Below, one piece after another: positions 28,717 to 37,064 of a DNA stretch of 37,064 bases. The translations under genes were made by a program, and so were the position numbers. The stretch comes from Candidatus Aminicenantota bacterium (GTDB taxonomy: Bacteria > Acidobacteriota > Aminicenantia > Aminicenantales > UBA4085), in assembly GCA_030691735.1 (NCBI GenBank), contig JAUYDS010000147.1, forward strand, positions 1 to 37,064, read 5' to 3'. The stretch's first letter is position 1; every line of letters starts with the position of its first letter. Below the pieces are notes generated by a model that worked only from the letters and a program-made list of their open reading frames with translations, was not told where the DNA came from and ran no database searches.

Positions 28717-29760
28717 ATGAAAATCCCTATGGGCTTAATCCGCTGGGCCAAGAGCCGGCTCTTTTGCGACCTCGCCATCGACCTGGGGACGGCCAATACG
28801 CTCGTCTATCTCAAGGGCAAGGGCATCATCATCCAGGAGCCCTCGATCGTCGTCATCAACCGCCAGAGCGGCAAGGTCGAGGCCGTCGGCAGCCGGGCCA
28901 AGGCCATGCTCGGCAAAACGCCGGCCAACATCCTGGCCATCAAGCCGATGCGCGACGGCGTCATCGCCGATTTCGAGATCGCGGAGAAGATGCTCGATTA
29001 TTTCATTAAAAAGGCGACCAACAACCGCGGCTTTTTGCTTCGGCCGCGGATCGTCATCGGCATCCCGACCGGCATCACCCAGGTCGAGCGCCGGGCCGTG
29101 AAGGACGTGGCCATGCGGGCCAAAGCGACTGAGGTCTATCTCGTCGAACAGCCCATGTCGGCGGCCGTCGGCGCGGGCCTTCCGATCTCCGAGCCGACCG
29201 GGAATATGGTCGTCGACATCGGCGGGGGGACGACGGATATCGCCGTCATCTCGCTCAACGGCATCGTTTTCAACCATTCCATCCGCATCGCCGGCAACGA
29301 GATGGACGAATCCATCATTCAGTACCTCAAGAAGAAATACAACCTTCTCATCGGAGAGAAGAGCGCCGAGATGGTCAAGCTCCAGATCGGTTCGGCCTAT
29401 CCGCTCGATGAGCCCTTGACCATGGAGATCAAGGGCCGGGACCTGCGGGAAGGGATCCCGAAGACCATCGTCATCGACGATCAGGAGATCCGCGAATCCC
29501 TGGAGGACGTCGTCGCTTCGATCGTCAACGCCGTCCGGATAGCCCTGGAAAAGACGCCGCCCGAGCTCTCGGCCGACATCATCGACCGGGGCATCATCCT
29601 GACCGGCGGAGGGGCCTTGCTCAAGAACCTCGACAAGCGGATCCGCGAGGAAACGCAGCTGCCCGTCTTCATCACCGAAGATCCTCTGACGACGGTCGTA
29701 CTCGGGGCGGGCAAGATGCTCGACGACTTGGAGCTCTTGAAGAAGATCTCCGTCACCTAA
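28717..29760 (+). CDS. mreB: Rod shape-determining protein MreB
   Basis: AIDLGTANTLVYLKGKGIIIQEPSIV, GIPTGITQVERRAV, DIGGGTTDIAVISLNGIV, ILTGGGALLKNLD. Confidence 0.98.
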   Translation: MKIPMGLIRWAKSRLFCDLAIDLGTANTLVYLKGKGIIIQEPSIVVINRQSGKVEAVGSRAKAMLGKTPANILAIKPMRDGVIADFEIAEKMLDYFIKKATNNRGFLLRPRIVIGIPTGITQVERRAVKDVAMRAKATEVYLVEQPMSAAVGAGLPISEPTGNMVVDIGGGTTDIAVISLNGIVFNHSIRIAGNEMDESIIQYLKKKYNLLIGEKSAEMVKLQIGSAYPLDEPLTMEIKGRDLREGIPKTIVIDDQEIRESLEDVVASIVNAVRIALEKTPPELSADIIDRGIILTGGGALLKNLDKRIREETQLPVFITEDPLTTVVLGAGKMLDDLELLKKISVT

Positions 29761-29774
29761 TCCGAAGAAATGGA

Positions 29775-30614
29775 ATGCCCCGCTTTCTGAAAGAACAGAA
29801 AAAATCGCTGATCTTTGCGGGACTTCTTTTCGCTCAACTCGTCCTGATCTCGATCCAAGTGCCGCTCGGGGAAGAGCCGAGCTATCTCGAAAAGGCGGTT
29901 TTTTTCGTCTTTGCTCCCGTCCAGCGGGCCGTTCACGGGCTGTTCGCGACGACCGGGCGGATCTGGGACCGATACATCTATCTGCGTCGCGTGGAAGCCC
30001 AGAACCAAACGCTGCGGGACGAGCTCTTCCACGTCCGCCAGACGAACACGCTGCTGACCAACGCGCTCTCCGCCCTCAAGGAAACGAAGGAGATGGAGAC
30101 GGCCCTGGCGACACTTCAGAAATCTTTCCTCGTCGCGGCGGTCATCGGAGTGGACGCTTCCGATATATATAAATCCATCATCATCGACAAAGGATCGAAT
30201 CACGGCCTGACGAGCAACATGCCCGTCCTAGACCGATACGGGAATCTCGTCGGCCGGGTCACGACCCCGATCTCGCCCCGGGAGGCGACCGTCCAACTCC
30301 TCACGGACGACAACAGCTCGATCGGCGTCCTGTCGGAAACGAACAAGGTCGTCGGCCAGCTCTCCGGAAACGCCAAGGGAGGGAGGTGTTGGTTCAAATA
30401 CGTTCTGGCGACGAACGAACAGCTCGTCGAGGGCGAGGAGCTGTTCACCTCCGGCTTCGACAAGATCTTTCCTCCGGGCCTCAAGGTCGGAAAGATCCTG
30501 TCCATCGCGACCGACAACTCTCTGTTCAAGAGGATCGAGGTCGAGCCCCATTTGAATTTCCGCGAACTGAGCCATGTCGCCGTCATCACCCAGAAGATCG
30601 AAGGGATGCGCTAG
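29775..30614 (+). CDS. mreC: Rod shape-determining protein MreC
   Basis: Single N-terminal TM, coiled coil, VIGVDASDIYKSIIIDKGSNHGLTSNMPVLDRYGNLVGRV; position after mreB. Confidence 0.94.
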   Translation: MPRFLKEQKKSLIFAGLLFAQLVLISIQVPLGEEPSYLEKAVFFVFAPVQRAVHGLFATTGRIWDRYIYLRRVEAQNQTLRDELFHVRQTNTLLTNALSALKETKEMETALATLQKSFLVAAVIGVDASDIYKSIIIDKGSNHGLTSNMPVLDRYGNLVGRVTTPISPREATVQLLTDDNSSIGVLSETNKVVGQLSGNAKGGRCWFKYVLATNEQLVEGEELFTSGFDKIFPPGLKVGKILSIATDNSLFKRIEVEPHLNFRELSHVAVITQKIEGMR

Positions 30615-30626
30615 GATTCGACGACC

Positions 30627-31106
30627 ATGAAACCCCTCATCAAAGGCGGGCTGACGATCCTGGCGGCCTTCGTCCTCACCGCCGCGCTCCGTCAGATCTC
30701 CGTGCCGCTCCTCATTTGCGTCAATGTCTTCACCGTGGCGGTCATTCTCTTCGGCCTGATCGAAGGCGAGACGCAGGGCGCGGTCTTGGGCATGGCCTGC
30801 GGTCTCGTCGTCGATTCCTTTTCCCTGGGCATCTTCGGACTGAGCGGTCTGGCTAATACGGTCACCGGTTTCCTGTCGGGATTCATCTCACGAAAGATGA
30901 ACGTCCTGCCGATCGGCCGCCTGTTCGTTTTCACGGGGCTCATGGGCGCCCTGGACCTCGGTCTCTGGGTGCTGTTGTCCGCCGTCTTTTCGGAGGGTTT
31001 CCCCTGGGGCGGCGGATTCCTCCTCGCCCAACCCCTCGTCACGGCCGCGCTGGCGACTGTCGTTTATCCGATTCATCGCAGGATCAAGACCCGCTATGAG
31101 AGATAG
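30627..31106 (+). CDS. mreD: Rod shape-determining protein MreD
   Basis: About 160 aa, polytopic, GLIEGETQGAVLGMACGLVVDSFSLGIFGLSGLANTVTGF; between mreC and mrdA. Confidence 0.88.
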   Translation: MKPLIKGGLTILAAFVLTAALRQISVPLLICVNVFTVAVILFGLIEGETQGAVLGMACGLVVDSFSLGIFGLSGLANTVTGFLSGFISRKMNVLPIGRLFVFTGLMGALDLGLWVLLSAVFSEGFPWGGGFLLAQPLVTAALATVVYPIHRRIKTRYER

Positions 31107-32895
31107 CCCGATCTACGAAGACGTCTCCCATCTCCTGACAAGGTCCCGTGTCGTCTTCATCCTCATCGAGGTCCTCTTTATCTTCGTGGCGTTCTATTAT
31201 TGGAAGACCCAGATCCTCGACTACAAAAAATATTGGAACCAATCGGAGGCCAACCGGACCCGCGAGGTCATCGTTCCGGCGCCGCGCGCCGTTCTCACCG
31301 ACCGCGGGGGATCGGTCGTGCTGGCCAACAACATCGCTTCGTTCAAGGCGTCCATCATCCGCGAGAACAGCAAGAACTTCGAGGACTCCTGCCGGAAGAT
31401 CAGCCTGCTCCTCGGACTTGAGGAAGAGGTTTTGAAACAGCGCATCGAAAAATACCGGTCCTTGCCTTTATTCAAACCGATCGTCGTGAAAGACAATCTG
31501 ACCCTTGAGGATGTCGCCCTGATCGAAGGCCGAAAGATGGACCTGCCCGAACTGGTCATCGAGACCGAGCCAAAACGGTTCTATCCGTTCGCCAACCTGG
31601 CCGCTCATGTCCTCGGCTATATACAGGAACTGACGCCGGACGAGCTTCGGACGACCTTCAAAGACCGCCGGCTCGGGGAGATGGTCGGAAAAACCGGGAT
31701 CGAGAACAGCTACGAAGCGCGCATGGCGGGCGTGGACGGCAAGATCGTCGAAGTCGTGGACAGCCTGGGCCGGAAGCGGGACGAGCTCGATCGCATCGAA
31801 CCCCAACAGAGACCGAAGCTTTCCCTGGCCATCGATTACGATCTTCAAGCGAAGGCGGAAGAGCTGCTGGCGGGGAAGGAGGGGGCCATCGTGGCCCTGG
31901 ACGCGAAAACGGGCGGCGTCATGGCCCTGGCCAGCTATCCGACGTATGACCCCAACAAGTTCGTCAACCGCTTCACGCCCGAGGAGTGGATGGCGCTGGC
32001 CAACAATCCCGACACCCCCCTCGTCAACCGGGCCCTCCAAGGACAGTACTCTCCCGGCTCCATCTTCAAGCTGGTCATGGCCGCCGCCGCGCTGGACAGC
32101 CGGACGATCACCGATCAGACCACGTTCTTCTGTGGCGGCGTCATCGAGATCTACGGCCGGCCGTTCCATTGTTGGTCCGAGCCCGGCCACGGCACGCTCA
32201 ATTTCTATGAGGCGATCCGGCAATCGTGCAACGTCTATTTCTATAATATCGGCCGGCGGATGAACATCGACGCGATCGCCGGCTATGCCGAACAGCTCGG
32301 TCTGGGAAAAAGAACGGGGATCGACATCCCCGGCGAGAAGGAAGGTCTGGTCCCGAGCACCGGCTGGAAGCAGAGAACCCAGAAAACGGCCTGGTACCCC
32401 GGAGAAACGATCTCCGTAGCCATCGGCCAAGGGCCGCTTCAGGTCACGCCGGTCCAGGTCGCGGCGATGACGGCCTTGATCGCCAACCGAGGCCGGAAGG
32501 TTCGACCCCATGTTCTCCTGGACGCGGCGCCCTTCACGGAGACGACGAAGATCCCGGCCGCGATCTTCGAACAGGTCATCGAAGGGATGTGGCGCTCGGC
32601 GAATGCGGGAGGGACGGGCCAGGCGGCCAAGGTCGAGGCCTTCGATGTCTGTTCCAAAACGGGGTCCACCCAATGGATCGGGCGGGAAACGGCCGAACGC
32701 TTGGGCGGGGCGCTGAAAAAAACGCATTCGTGGTTCACCGGCTTCGCCCCCCGCAACGATCCGCAGGTCGTCGTGACCGTCCTGATCGAGTTCGGAGGCA
32801 TGGGCGGCGCCACGGCCGCCCCGATGGCCGGCCAGATTTTCAAGCTTTACAAGACCAAATATCATGATCGACAGAGTCCAACTCCGCGAAATTGA
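31096..32895 (+). CDS. mrdA: Penicillin-binding protein 2
   Basis: TRSRVVFILIEVLF TM, APRAVLTDRGGSVVLANN, YSPGSIFKLVMAAAAL (SxxK), SCN motif RQSCNVYFYNIG, CSKTGSTQ (KTG). Confidence 0.96.
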   Translation: MRDSPIYEDVSHLLTRSRVVFILIEVLFIFVAFYYWKTQILDYKKYWNQSEANRTREVIVPAPRAVLTDRGGSVVLANNIASFKASIIRENSKNFEDSCRKISLLLGLEEEVLKQRIEKYRSLPLFKPIVVKDNLTLEDVALIEGRKMDLPELVIETEPKRFYPFANLAAHVLGYIQELTPDELRTTFKDRRLGEMVGKTGIENSYEARMAGVDGKIVEVVDSLGRKRDELDRIEPQQRPKLSLAIDYDLQAKAEELLAGKEGAIVALDAKTGGVMALASYPTYDPNKFVNRFTPEEWMALANNPDTPLVNRALQGQYSPGSIFKLVMAAAALDSRTITDQTTFFCGGVIEIYGRPFHCWSEPGHGTLNFYEAIRQSCNVYFYNIGRRMNIDAIAGYAEQLGLGKRTGIDIPGEKEGLVPSTGWKQRTQKTAWYPGETISVAIGQGPLQVTPVQVAAMTALIANRGRKVRPHVLLDAAPFTETTKIPAAIFEQVIEGMWRSANAGGTGQAAKVEAFDVCSKTGSTQWIGRETAERLGGALKKTHSWFTGFAPRNDPQVVVTVLIEFGGMGGATAAPMAGQIFKLYKTKYHDRQSPTPRN

Positions 32896-33955
32896 CTGGG
32901 TCCTCATCGGGCTCCTGCTCGTGAACTCGGTCATCGGAATCCTTTTGATCTATAGTTCTTCGCATTATCAGAATGGGAATTTCTACGTCAAACAGATCAT
33001 CTGGCTGCTTATCAGCCTCGGCGTGCTCTTCCTGGTTCTTTCGATCGATTACAAACTCTTGGTCGGCTTCTCTCCTTATCTTTACGTCCTGTTCCTCCTT
33101 CTCCTTGGCGGATTGCTGATCTTCGGGCGAGTGATCTCCGGAGCCAAGAGCTGGATCCACCTGGCGATCATCGGCGGACAACCGTCCGAGCTGGCCAAGG
33201 TCGTGGTCCTGCTCGTCCTGGCCCGGATCTTCTCTGAATTCCAGCGGACCTATCTGAGTCTCGAGTTCGCCGCTCTCAGCGGCGCGGTCGTTTTCGTGCC
33301 GGTCGCCGTGATCGCCGTTCAGCCGGACCTGGGCACGGCCGTCTGCTTTCTGCCCCTGCTGTTGGCCAGCTTCCTCCTCGCCGGCATGAACAGAAAGACG
33401 CTGGCCCTTCTGCTGATCATCACGGTCGTCTCCGGTTTCGTCGGATGGAATTTCTTCTTGAAGGACTACCAGAAACAACGATTGACGACGCTGGTGAATC
33501 CCGGTCAGGACCCGCGGGGGTCGGGCTATCACGTCCTTCAATCGAAGATCGCCATCGGATCCGGGGGCCTGGCGGGCAAAGGTTTTAAAAAAGGAACGCA
33601 GATTCAATTGCGATTTCTTCCGGCCCGCCATACGGACTTCATCTTTTCGGTGCTGGGGGAGGAGTTCGGCTTCCTCGGCGTCTTCATCGTCCTCCTGACC
33701 TATTTCTCCCTGTTGGCCAGGATCTTCCGATCCGTCGGGAAATCCAGGGATCGGGCCGGCATGTACATCGTCTTCATGGCCGCCTGCCTGCTGACCTTTC
33801 AATTCCTGTTCAACGTGATGATGATCGTCGGTCTGTTTCCGATCACCGGGATCCCGATCCCTCTGCTCAGCTATGGAGGGTCGTCGCTCCTGACGACGTT
33901 CGTCGCCGTGGGACTGGTCGTCAACGTTAAGATGAGAAGATTCGTCAATGTCTGA
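32864..33955 (+). CDS. rodA: Rod shape-determining protein RodA (SEDS glycosyltransferase)
   Basis: GARxW-like GAKSWIHLAIIGGQPSELAKV, QPDLGTA, RHTDFIFSVLGEEFGFLG, GIPIPLLSYGGSSLLTTFVAVGLVVNVKMRR. Confidence 0.97.
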   Translation: MIDRVQLREIDWVLIGLLLVNSVIGILLIYSSSHYQNGNFYVKQIIWLLISLGVLFLVLSIDYKLLVGFSPYLYVLFLLLLGGLLIFGRVISGAKSWIHLAIIGGQPSELAKVVVLLVLARIFSEFQRTYLSLEFAALSGAVVFVPVAVIAVQPDLGTAVCFLPLLLASFLLAGMNRKTLALLLIITVVSGFVGWNFFLKDYQKQRLTTLVNPGQDPRGSGYHVLQSKIAIGSGGLAGKGFKKGTQIQLRFLPARHTDFIFSVLGEEFGFLGVFIVLLTYFSLLARIFRSVGKSRDRAGMYIVFMAACLLTFQFLFNVMMIVGLFPITGIPIPLLSYGGSSLLTTFVAVGLVVNVKMRRFVNV

Positions 33956-36485
33956 CGGAGCCGCTAGGGGCGTCCTGGACGGGATCCTGCCGGCGGTCGA
34001 AAAGCCGGGCCGCTACACCGGAGGCGAATGGAACGAGGTCCGCAAGGACCCGGCGCGGGCCAAGGTCAAAGTGGCCCTCGCCTTCCCCGACGTTTACGAA
34101 ATCGGCATGTCCTATCTCGGCCAGAAGATCCTCTATGCCTTGATCAACGCTCTTCCGTTCGCCCTGGCCGAACGCGTTTTCGCGCCCTGGCCGGACTTCG
34201 AACGGGAACTCCGGGAACGCGGAGCGCCGCTCCGGTCGCTCGAAAACAAGATCCCTCTGGCAGAATTCGATATCATCGGCTTTTCGCTCCTGTATGAGCT
34301 CAATAACTCCAATATCCTGACGATCCTCGACCTGGGCGGGATCCCGCTGTTTGCGGAGGAGAGGGATCTCCGGCATCCTTTGGTGATCGCCGGAGGCCCG
34401 GCCGCTTTCAATCCCGAGCCAGTGGCCGACGTCTTCGACCTTTTTCTCATCGGCGACGGGGAAGAGGCGGTTCCGGAAATCATCGGGAAATGCGCGGACA
34501 TGAAAGGCGCGGCAGCGTCCCGTAAAGACATCCTGAGGGAACTCGCCCGTATCCCCGGCGTCTATGTCCCGTCCTTCTATGAGGTTTTTCTCCCGGCCGG
34601 CGGTTCTCTCCAGACGGTCAGGCCGAGGACCGGCGCGCCGGCCACGGTTCGCAAACGCGTCCTTCGCGACTTCAGCCGTTCTTTTTTTCCCGCCGACATC
34701 GTCGTCCCCAATGTCCGGGCCGTCTTCGACCGGGTCGCCGTCGAAGTCGCGCGCGGCTGCCCTCACAAATGCCGGTTTTGTCAGGCGACGAGCCTTTATG
34801 CCCCCTACCGGATCAAGGATCCATCTTATGTCGTGAACTGCATCTTCGAAAGCGTCAAGGCGACGGGCTACGAGGATGCGTCGCTGTTCTCGCTCTCCGT
34901 GAGCGATTATCCGTACCTCGGAGAAACCATTCGGACGTTGATGAACAGCCTGGAAAAGGACCATGTCTCCCTGTCGCTCTCTTCCTTACGGCCCAAAGGT
35001 CTTTCGGCGGAGATCATCCGCGACATCATCAAGGTCCGGAAGACGGGGTTCACGCTCGTTCCCGAGGCGGGCTCTGAACGGTTACGCGGCGTGATCAACA
35101 AGGATCTGAACGATCAGGACATTTGGGACGCCGCAGAGAACGCGTTCCGCGAAGGCTGGAAACTGCTGAAACTCTATTTCATGATCGGCCTTCCCACGGA
35201 ACGGGAAGAGGACCTTCGCGGAATCGCGGCTCTGATCGACGAACTCACGGCGCGCGGCCGGGAGATCATGGCTTCGCCGCCCCGGATCAACATGAGCGTC
35301 TCCTCCTTCATCCCCAAGCCCCACACGCCTTTTCAATGGGCGGCCATGGAAACGGAAGAGGCGCTCCGCGAGAAGCAGTCCTATCTCAAACGTCTTTTGA
35401 AGACGAAGCGCCATGTTCAGATCAAGGACCATCCCGTCGATAGTTCTTTCCTTGAGGCCGTATTCTCCCGGGGCGACCGCCGTCTGTCCGCCGTCCTGCG
35501 CACGGCCTGGGGCCACGGGGCCCGATTCGATAGCTGGCGGGACCATTTCCAATTTCCCCTCTGGCTGCGGGCCTTTGACGAGACCGGCGTCGATCCCCGA
35601 ACGTACTTGGGGGAATTGGATCTGAACTCAGGCCTCCCCTGGGACCACATCGAGACGGGAGTCAAGAAGGGATTCCTTCAGGACGAACTGGCGAAAGCGA
35701 TGAGGTCCGAACGTTCGCCTTCCTGCCTGGAAACGTCGTGCGGCCGCTGTCGCGGCTGCGATTTCATGGCTGACATCGACAGGGAATTCAAAGCGAAGAT
35801 CGAGGTCAGCGATCGTCCGGGTCCGACCTTGGGGCGCCGGACGGAAACGGTGACCCGGTATCAAGCGTTCTACGCGAAGGGGGGACAAGCTCGATTCGTG
35901 TCCCACAACGACCTTCTCAACATCCTCCAGCGGACATTCAAACGGGCGGGCGTGGAGGCCGTGTTCTCCGAGGGTTTCCATCCGAAAATGCAGATGTCCT
36001 TCGTCCCGGCCCTGCCGCTGGGCATGACGGGCGAAGACGAATCGTTCGAATTCAAATCCCCGGCGGATCTTGAGGAGCGGGAATTCGTGGACGTCCTCAA
36101 CCGCCGCGCGCCGTCCGGGATCCAGTTCTTCGGGCTGAAGCGGATCGACGCCGGCGCGCGCTCATTGACCGAGCGGATCTCGTCGATGGTCTATTCGCTC
36201 GATCTCGACACCGCCGAAGCAGGAGAGGGACTGGCCGTCGGGAAAGGGGAGGGAGACCCCGAGGAAAAGACGGAAAAGATCGCGGCACGCCTGATCGACG
36301 AATACCGGCCGGGCAAGCCCGACCTGCTTCAAGAGATCTTCGTGGACGCGTCATCCCACAAGGTCGTCCTGAAGATCGCCTTCAGTCCCCAACGGTCGCT
36401 CCGGCCCCAGGATGTCGTCGAGCGGGCCCTCGGCCTTCAGCGCTCCGTTTATCTCATGACCCGCGAAAAAATCCAGTTCAAGTGA
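33948..36485 (+). CDS. B12-binding/radical SAM protein (TIGR03960-like) fused to a DUF2344 (TIGR03936-like) domain
   Basis: N-terminal FPDVYEIGMSYLGQKILY, VARGCPHKCRFCQATSLYAPYR (CxxxCxxC), CLETSCGRCRGC, then TRYQAFYAKGGQARFVSHNDLLNILQRTFKRAGVEAVFSEGFHPKMQMSFVPALPLGMTGEDE (DUF2344). Confidence 0.9.
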   Translation: MSDGAARGVLDGILPAVEKPGRYTGGEWNEVRKDPARAKVKVALAFPDVYEIGMSYLGQKILYALINALPFALAERVFAPWPDFERELRERGAPLRSLENKIPLAEFDIIGFSLLYELNNSNILTILDLGGIPLFAEERDLRHPLVIAGGPAAFNPEPVADVFDLFLIGDGEEAVPEIIGKCADMKGAAASRKDILRELARIPGVYVPSFYEVFLPAGGSLQTVRPRTGAPATVRKRVLRDFSRSFFPADIVVPNVRAVFDRVAVEVARGCPHKCRFCQATSLYAPYRIKDPSYVVNCIFESVKATGYEDASLFSLSVSDYPYLGETIRTLMNSLEKDHVSLSLSSLRPKGLSAEIIRDIIKVRKTGFTLVPEAGSERLRGVINKDLNDQDIWDAAENAFREGWKLLKLYFMIGLPTEREEDLRGIAALIDELTARGREIMASPPRINMSVSSFIPKPHTPFQWAAMETEEALREKQSYLKRLLKTKRHVQIKDHPVDSSFLEAVFSRGDRRLSAVLRTAWGHGARFDSWRDHFQFPLWLRAFDETGVDPRTYLGELDLNSGLPWDHIETGVKKGFLQDELAKAMRSERSPSCLETSCGRCRGCDFMADIDREFKAKIEVSDRPGPTLGRRTETVTRYQAFYAKGGQARFVSHNDLLNILQRTFKRAGVEAVFSEGFHPKMQMSFVPALPLGMTGEDESFEFKSPADLEEREFVDVLNRRAPSGIQFFGLKRIDAGARSLTERISSMVYSLDLDTAEAGEGLAVGKGEGDPEEKTEKIAARLIDEYRPGKPDLLQEIFVDASSHKVVLKIAFSPQRSLRPQDVVERALGLQRSVYLMTREKIQFK

Positions 36486-36540
36486 AGAAGGGCTCGGGGT
36501 AAGAATCTCGCTCCCTGGCGGAAATCTTAACGCCGGCATC

Positions 36541-36725
36541 GTTCGGTTTTTCCGGCGGCTAATACAAATAGTCGACGCGGCGACAGAGTTGGCCCCCGGC
36601 CCCCTGGGGAACCAGTCCCGTCGGTTCCCCCCATCGGCTAAGCCGATGGGACCCCCCTCCGCTATGGGGGCCTTGGGGCCAACCCTGCCGTCGCGTCCTT
36701 GAATCGTCCGCCGAAAAAACCGAAC
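36541..36725 (-). ncRNA. Candidate structured RNA or palindromic element: two nested long stems enclosing three hairpins
   Basis: Stem P1 36541-36558/36708-36725 (17/18 paired), P2 36574-36596/36675-36697 (20 Watson-Crick of 23), inner hairpins 36606-36630, 36630-36650 and 36652-36670. Non-Watson-Crick positions are mostly G-U if transcribed from the minus strand. Confidence 0.45.
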
Positions 36726-36948
36726 CGCAGCGGCGAGATATCCTTGTGGTCGCTTCGCTTTCTTCCCCCTCGCCCAAGTTAATAATAAGAGCTTTATTGA
36801 GCGCTTCTTTTATAGCTGAGGATAGGAATATGTCGCCATATTTATCAATTAGCGAGCGAAGAAGCGGGCGAACGCTCAATTCACGGATTGAACCGAACGA
36901 CGAGATCGGGAAACGGCTGAGCGACCATGGAGGGTTTAGCCTTTCCGA

Positions 36949-37042
36949 GCTGTCCTTCGAGGACAGCCGATCCGGAAGAGATCGGCCGGCGAAGCATGAT
37001 CGAGCTTCCCGGCGTACTCCCGTTATTAAGAAGCCGGGAAGC
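36949..37042. other. Cluster of three consecutive perfect hairpins at the right edge
   Basis: gctgtcct-tcg-aggacagc (36949-36967), ccgatc-cggaaga-gatcgg (36967-36985), gcttcccggc-19 nt-gccgggaagc (37004-37042). Confidence 0.5.
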
Positions 37043-37064
37043 GAGTTCTGAGCCGCCGAGAAGG

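Follow-up and report, generated by a model that had tools for sequence, protein, structure and literature searches.

Question and architecture of the locus

Downstream of a radical SAM protein gene in an Aminicenantales genome, two long stems and three hairpins appear to be nested within each other, and the question is whether this arrangement is a single structured RNA of that locus, as a preliminary description had supposed, or part of something more widespread. All coordinates refer to the window, i.e. the whole stretch of 37,064 nucleotides that was analysed (Table 1). The architecture was reproduced to the nucleotide: the outer stem comprises 18 pairs, one of them imperfect, and the second stem 23 pairs, three of them imperfect, with spacers of exactly 15 nt on the left and 10 nt on the right. 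On the plus strand, one of the imperfect pairs (36552-36714, 36580-36691, 36583-36688 and 36587-36684) is G.T and three are A.C; read from the minus strand, three become G.U and one remains A.C, as had been described. Two of the three proposed hairpins, ggggaacc/ggttcccc and cccatcggc/gccgatggg, were found in the window sequence as written; the third, ccccc/ggggg, is more plausibly part of the stem P1, at its inner end.

The RNA folding energy of the segment 36531-36735 (205 nt) was -121.5 kcal/mol for the plus strand (z -8.6) and -137.0 kcal/mol for the minus strand (z -9.5), and none of 200 dinucleotide shuffles matched the native energy on either strand. The inner part alone, termed element B, gave -92.6 on the minus strand (z-score in Table 1). 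The preliminary description could not match the structure to tRNA, tmRNA, RNase P, SRP or a known riboswitch, and this was borne out: Rfam (Rfam 15) returned no match at gathering or permissive thresholds for the window or for divergent copies, and a search of the window for tRNA and tmRNA was negative. All neighbouring genes at 28717-36485 lie on the plus strand; the radical SAM-DUF2344 gene comes last, after a mreB-like gene and rod-shape genes that include those for penicillin-binding protein 2 and RodA/FtsW.

Table 1. Position of the repeats, their parts and the adjacent gene in the window
Feature	Position	Strand	Remarks
Repeat A	36489..37064	.	complete length about 690 nt; in L009 the terminal inverted repeat is GGCTCGGGGAATAAGCTCGCTC
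Outer 18-bp stem, left arm	36541..36558	.	part of repeat A, not B
Outer 18-bp stem, right arm	36708..36725	.	part of repeat A
Element B	36574..36697	-	also stands alone at other loci; 134.5 bits with covariance model R1 for this copy; z -8.1
Left arm of P1, outer half (plus strand)	36574..36596	.	pairs with 36675-36697
Right arm of P1, outer half (plus strand)	36675..36697	.	pairs with 36574-36596
P1 inner end GGCCCCC/GGGGGCC	36598-36604 with 36666-36672 (plus strand)		within element B
P3 hairpin, 9-nt conserved loop GACGGGACU (minus strand)	36606..36630	-	
P2 hairpin CCCAUCGGC-UUA-GCCGAUGGG	36630..36650	-	pairing kept, sequence and length vary
Conserved unpaired AUAGCGGAGGGGGGU between P1 and P2	36651..36665	-	
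Radical SAM protein gene (Radical_SAM_N2, Radical_SAM, DUF2344)	33948..36485	+	neighbour, outside the element

A repeat within a repeat

The outer and second stems, previously taken as one structure, proved to belong to two different repeats, A and B. A search of the own genome with 36486-37064 yielded 78 matches, including the query itself and some palindromic self-matches; most were 74-96% identical, and the loci compared form a modular mosaic. Repeat A, which carries a terminal inverted repeat of 22 bp in locus L009, is almost wholly self-folding (z -17.7 against 20 shuffles), and near-full copies were seen only in the own genus. The window copy starts near 36489, and the contig end cuts off its right terminus. 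Element B sits inside one arm of A in the window and is also found alone at other loci; the same outer stem encloses an unrelated sequence of about 110 nt in three loci (L014 248-358, L019 2523-2633 and L021 2677-2787), where this alternative cargo takes the place of B. The nested appearance is thus that of a repeat within a repeat, since the outer stem belongs to A and B occurs alone. Another palindromic module of A, GGAAACGGCG...GCCGTTTCC (query positions 542-611, from the L009 copy), is spread in other families of the order.

The nearest named record, as judged by the radical SAM gene, is JAPKZI010000043.1 (Candidatus Aminicenantes), with 87% identity. At the site that carries A in the window, this relative, a sister species (L045), has a short intergenic region without repeat A, so that A was either gained here or lost in the sister species. 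Many contigs of the MAG end in or near a repeat (the window at 37064, and C36, C73, C123, C157, C192 and C201), so that copies were probably under-counted and the repeat fragments the assembly. This also serves as a warning that repeats of this kind terminate contigs in these MAGs.

Structure of element B

Element B, about 120 nt long, comprises the 23-bp stem together with the three-hairpin core. P1 is followed by the conserved AUAGCGGAGGGGGG, the variable hairpin P2 and the conserved hairpin P3 (GGGGAACC-GACGGGACU-GGUUCCCC). Along the sense strand, which is the minus strand in the window, the fold runs from P1 through AUAGCGGAGGGGG, P2 and P3 with its loop GACGGGACU back to P1, and is predicted to be a three-way junction. 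The stem P1 is 20-50 bp long among copies, drifting in sequence yet remaining paired, and the junction strand AUAGCGGAGGGGG is conserved. The conserved unpaired nucleotides are AUAGCGGA and GACGGGACU. About nine other copies of the own genome carry an insert of about 100 nt that splits the P3 loop at one point, corresponding to near 36617 in the window; the insert has a hairpin of its own (e.g. L013 2526-2629 and about eight further copies). A pseudoknot of GUCCC with the loop sequence GGGAC could form in the window copy and was rejected, as other copies replace that U by A, C or G.

Distribution among Aminicenantales

Seventeen own-genome copies of B served to build the covariance model R1. 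The element is multicopy and dispersed, with 22-24 copies in the own MAG, 33-35 in genome G001, 38 in G006 and 36 in G019. R1 detected B in 7 of 12 genomes of the family and, at E 1e-4, in 20 of 40 sampled genomes of the uncultured order Aminicenantales, representing five families. When 297 genomes of the phylum were scanned with R1 under a stricter filter, matches were confined to Aminicenantales, and no B was found in IMG/VR (exact pattern) or in the phages and plasmids searched. The view of a single RNA at one locus downstream of the radical SAM gene thus had to be abandoned: B is a repeat dispersed through the order, and no insertion is present in the sister species. What stands of the proposed undescribed structured RNA is its structure, covariation and strand bias; it is part of a multicopy mosaic and not of one locus.

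Occurrence was patchy even within one genus (38 copies in G006, none in G002). Gain or loss between sister species was observed, with filled and empty sites in relatives both for A (window against L045) and for B (L042 against G001, which lacks this copy and has 59 instead of 281 nt at the site). The element ends were fuzzy, and no clear target-site duplication was seen in three filled/empty comparisons (L045, L337 and L336, the last being a deletion remnant). At an orthologous site beside a tRNA gene, three genomes of the distant genus g15 carry the B core in tandem arrays whose units measure about 143-173 nt (L204 2772-3229, L205 2679-3233 and L206 2330-2867).

Covariation and strand preference

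Pairing of B is maintained through changes on both sides of the stems. In 119 copies aligned to R1, an alignment that is fitted to the R1 structure and in which three matches are weak and antisense, 95.2% of the cells pair and 30 of the 37 pairs had changed on both sides. Double-sided changes amounted to 674 cells, as compared with 138 in shuffled and 94-123 in slid controls, and the covariation score was 0.428 against 0.120 and 0.05-0.07 in the controls; homologues thus exist and compensatory changes are abundant, and these checks proposed in the preliminary description, like those of folding energy and Rfam, came out in favour of a structure. The alignment of 17 copies, which was not fitted to the model, agrees with this result. 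When 104 copies were aligned by MAFFT on sequence only, the arms were placed wrongly and no usable consensus fold emerged; anchored and model-based alignments took its place.

One orthologous g15 locus was compared between four species. Of its 24 P1 pairs, 15 carry changes in both partners and none in a single partner, and 93 of 96 cells pair. All 15 double changes are Watson-Crick and one-sided G-U steps are lacking, so that copying from arm to arm fits the locus as well. This observation favours the chief rival to a single-strand reading, i.e. that the elements are palindromes at the DNA level alone, MITE- or REP-like and without single-strand function, whose complementarity is kept by template switching or arm-to-arm conversion. 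The orientation of the copies, which is random relative to genes and replication, points in the same direction, as does the complementarity of some copies that continues into locus-specific flanks. Palindromes of this kind would be expected to show G-U and A-C pairs equally. Instead, 135 G-U and 62 A-C pairs were counted on the sense strand in the 25 stem positions next to the core, with G-T and A-C weighted equally in the scoring, and all ten genera were G-U-rich on this same strand. Arm conversion also leaves the conservation of the unpaired AUAGCGGA and GACGGGACU unexplained, and we regard a purely DNA-level origin as a possible but minority explanation.

Among single copies, 57 leaned to G-U and 17 to A-C, and the sense fold was the stabler one in 98 of 100 copies. 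The minus-strand preference, first suggested from only four pairs, therefore holds throughout the family. A looser count reaching into the flanks gave a weaker excess (198 G-U against 159 A-C). As the B copies are related, p-values for the strand are not to be taken at face value, and the agreement of the ten genera is the better argument. Together, these comparisons of sequences favour selection on one strand of the B core, and this strand would probably fold as RNA, single-stranded DNA being less likely. Single-strand selection and arm-to-arm copying may both be at work. If the strand-specific constraint is real, seemingly ordinary selfish palindromes carry a folded core that is selected throughout the order, and MITE-like DNA repeats would no longer be sharply separable from structured RNA families. 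Any role of dispersed repeats as RNA can be tested with R1 and over 100 natural variants.

Genomic context and possible partner genes

Only 1 of 102 copies of B overlapped a gene, as predicted by a home-made gene caller based on codon usage, and the nearest genes are usually no more than a few hundred bases away. This position would suit a cis-regulatory leader, a terminator or a 3′-UTR element of the neighbouring genes. The upstream and downstream genes were, however, oriented -/+ in 28, -/- in 23, +/- in 21 and +/+ in 20 cases, and copies without a preferred orientation make a cis-regulatory or 3′-UTR RNA of the radical SAM operon unlikely. Up to 2 kb from about 100 copies, no transposase or other gene family recurred apart from orthologous loci and common housekeeping families, and no terminator-like site was found in the stretch of the window copy. 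A cis-regulatory role is accordingly considered very improbable.

Spread by a reverse transcriptase, as in a retron-like RNA, was also considered. A UAGC follows the 5′ stem arm of B and is reminiscent of the retron msr; its position is the single point in favour. RVT_1 had no match in the own genome or in the B-rich genomes G001, G004, G006, G016, G018, G019 and G022, and where it was present, in 6 of 39 genomes, it was not correlated with B. A retron-like origin is thus hardly credible. Likewise, Y1 transposases did not track B, and none was found in the B-carrying genomes G022, G023, G024 and G012, which, as incomplete MAGs, may have missed such genes.

The copies showed no bias for the replication strand as judged by the GC skew of their flanks (p 0.24). 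Selection on the sense strand independent of the direction of neighbouring genes would also be expected of a family of cellular noncoding RNA genes, with trans-acting copies under their own promoters that serve the host by protein binding, as a sponge or as a regulator. The conservation of the loops across five families and the retention of some copies at orthologous sites and as g15 tandem arrays are consistent with such a family. It is unlikely, however, in view of the contrast between close relatives such as G002 and G006, the gain and loss between sister species, the lack of B at E 1e-4 in half of the sampled genomes of the order, and the lack of a convincing promoter at the window copy.

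Proposed nature of element B

The reading that we prefer, with modest confidence, is that B is an undescribed dispersed, non-autonomous, MITE-like intergenic repeat of Aminicenantales whose core folds as a single strand. The folded strand, RNA or less likely single-stranded DNA, would be the object of selection, after B had been transcribed or exposed as single-stranded DNA. A factor supplied in trans would recognise the conserved core, and its binding may allow B to persist and spread, the long stem acting through its shape and not its sequence. The window copy of B is nested in an arm of repeat A, a larger foldback repeat that runs from 36489 past 37064. A further-reaching version, which we put forward as speculative and rather doubtful, is that B is a mobile element at the RNA level that spreads or persists via a folded sense transcript or single-stranded DNA, with a conserved three-way-junction core recognised by shape, without a reverse transcriptase or a linked transposase, and that it nests in the hairpins of other repeats.

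Comparison with known repeats

A literature search, mostly outside subscription journals, yielded nothing relevant on repeats or noncoding RNA of Aminicenantes. REP/BIME sequences are numerous intergenic hairpins with a strand sense, and REPs are single hairpins, much shorter than B. The strand sense is common to B and to REP/BIME with RAYT, but Y1 genes do not track B. Structured RNA classes of Rfam 15 share with B covariation and conserved unpaired nucleotides; B differs in that no model matches and that it is dispersed without association to genes.

YPAL/RU-2 of Yersinia and ERIC/RU-1 are bacterial MITE-like palindromic repeats (PMC2229807). In form, B resembles them, YPAL above all, in being 100-200 nt long, dispersed, intergenic, highly foldable and non-autonomous, and in being gained or lost between sister species. 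Unlike these repeats, B has a stem that is hypervariable yet paired and a core that is conserved over the whole order; a target-site duplication and a 5′TA3′ end were not demonstrated for B. MITE-like traits that were found are the many short, dispersed, non-coding intergenic copies, up to 38 per genome, and terminal inverted repeats in the form of the 22 bp of A in L009 and the long paired arms of B. Assignment to the MITEs is only partial, since neither a target duplication nor an autonomous partner was shown. Repetitive hairpin-forming elements that are intergenic, patchy and in part double or triple hairpins have also been described from sponge mitochondria (PMC2800124). They resemble B in being intergenic, foldable and patchy, and differ in being shorter and in residing in other genomes; the main text of PMC2800124 makes no mention of covariation.

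The targets of YPAL include or border regions of dyad symmetry (PMC2229807), and targeting seems to be similar for B in the window and at L289/L291. At L289 (2060-2250) and L291, a terminator-like palindrome between convergent genes, GGGCCTCAGGA/TCCTGAGGGCC, apparently holds B in its loop. This palindrome is formed by flanks outside the shared repeat, and the sequences give the impression that B inserted into a hairpin loop, similar to its position inside the stem of A in the window. With these two cases, hairpin loops are a possible preferred target of B.
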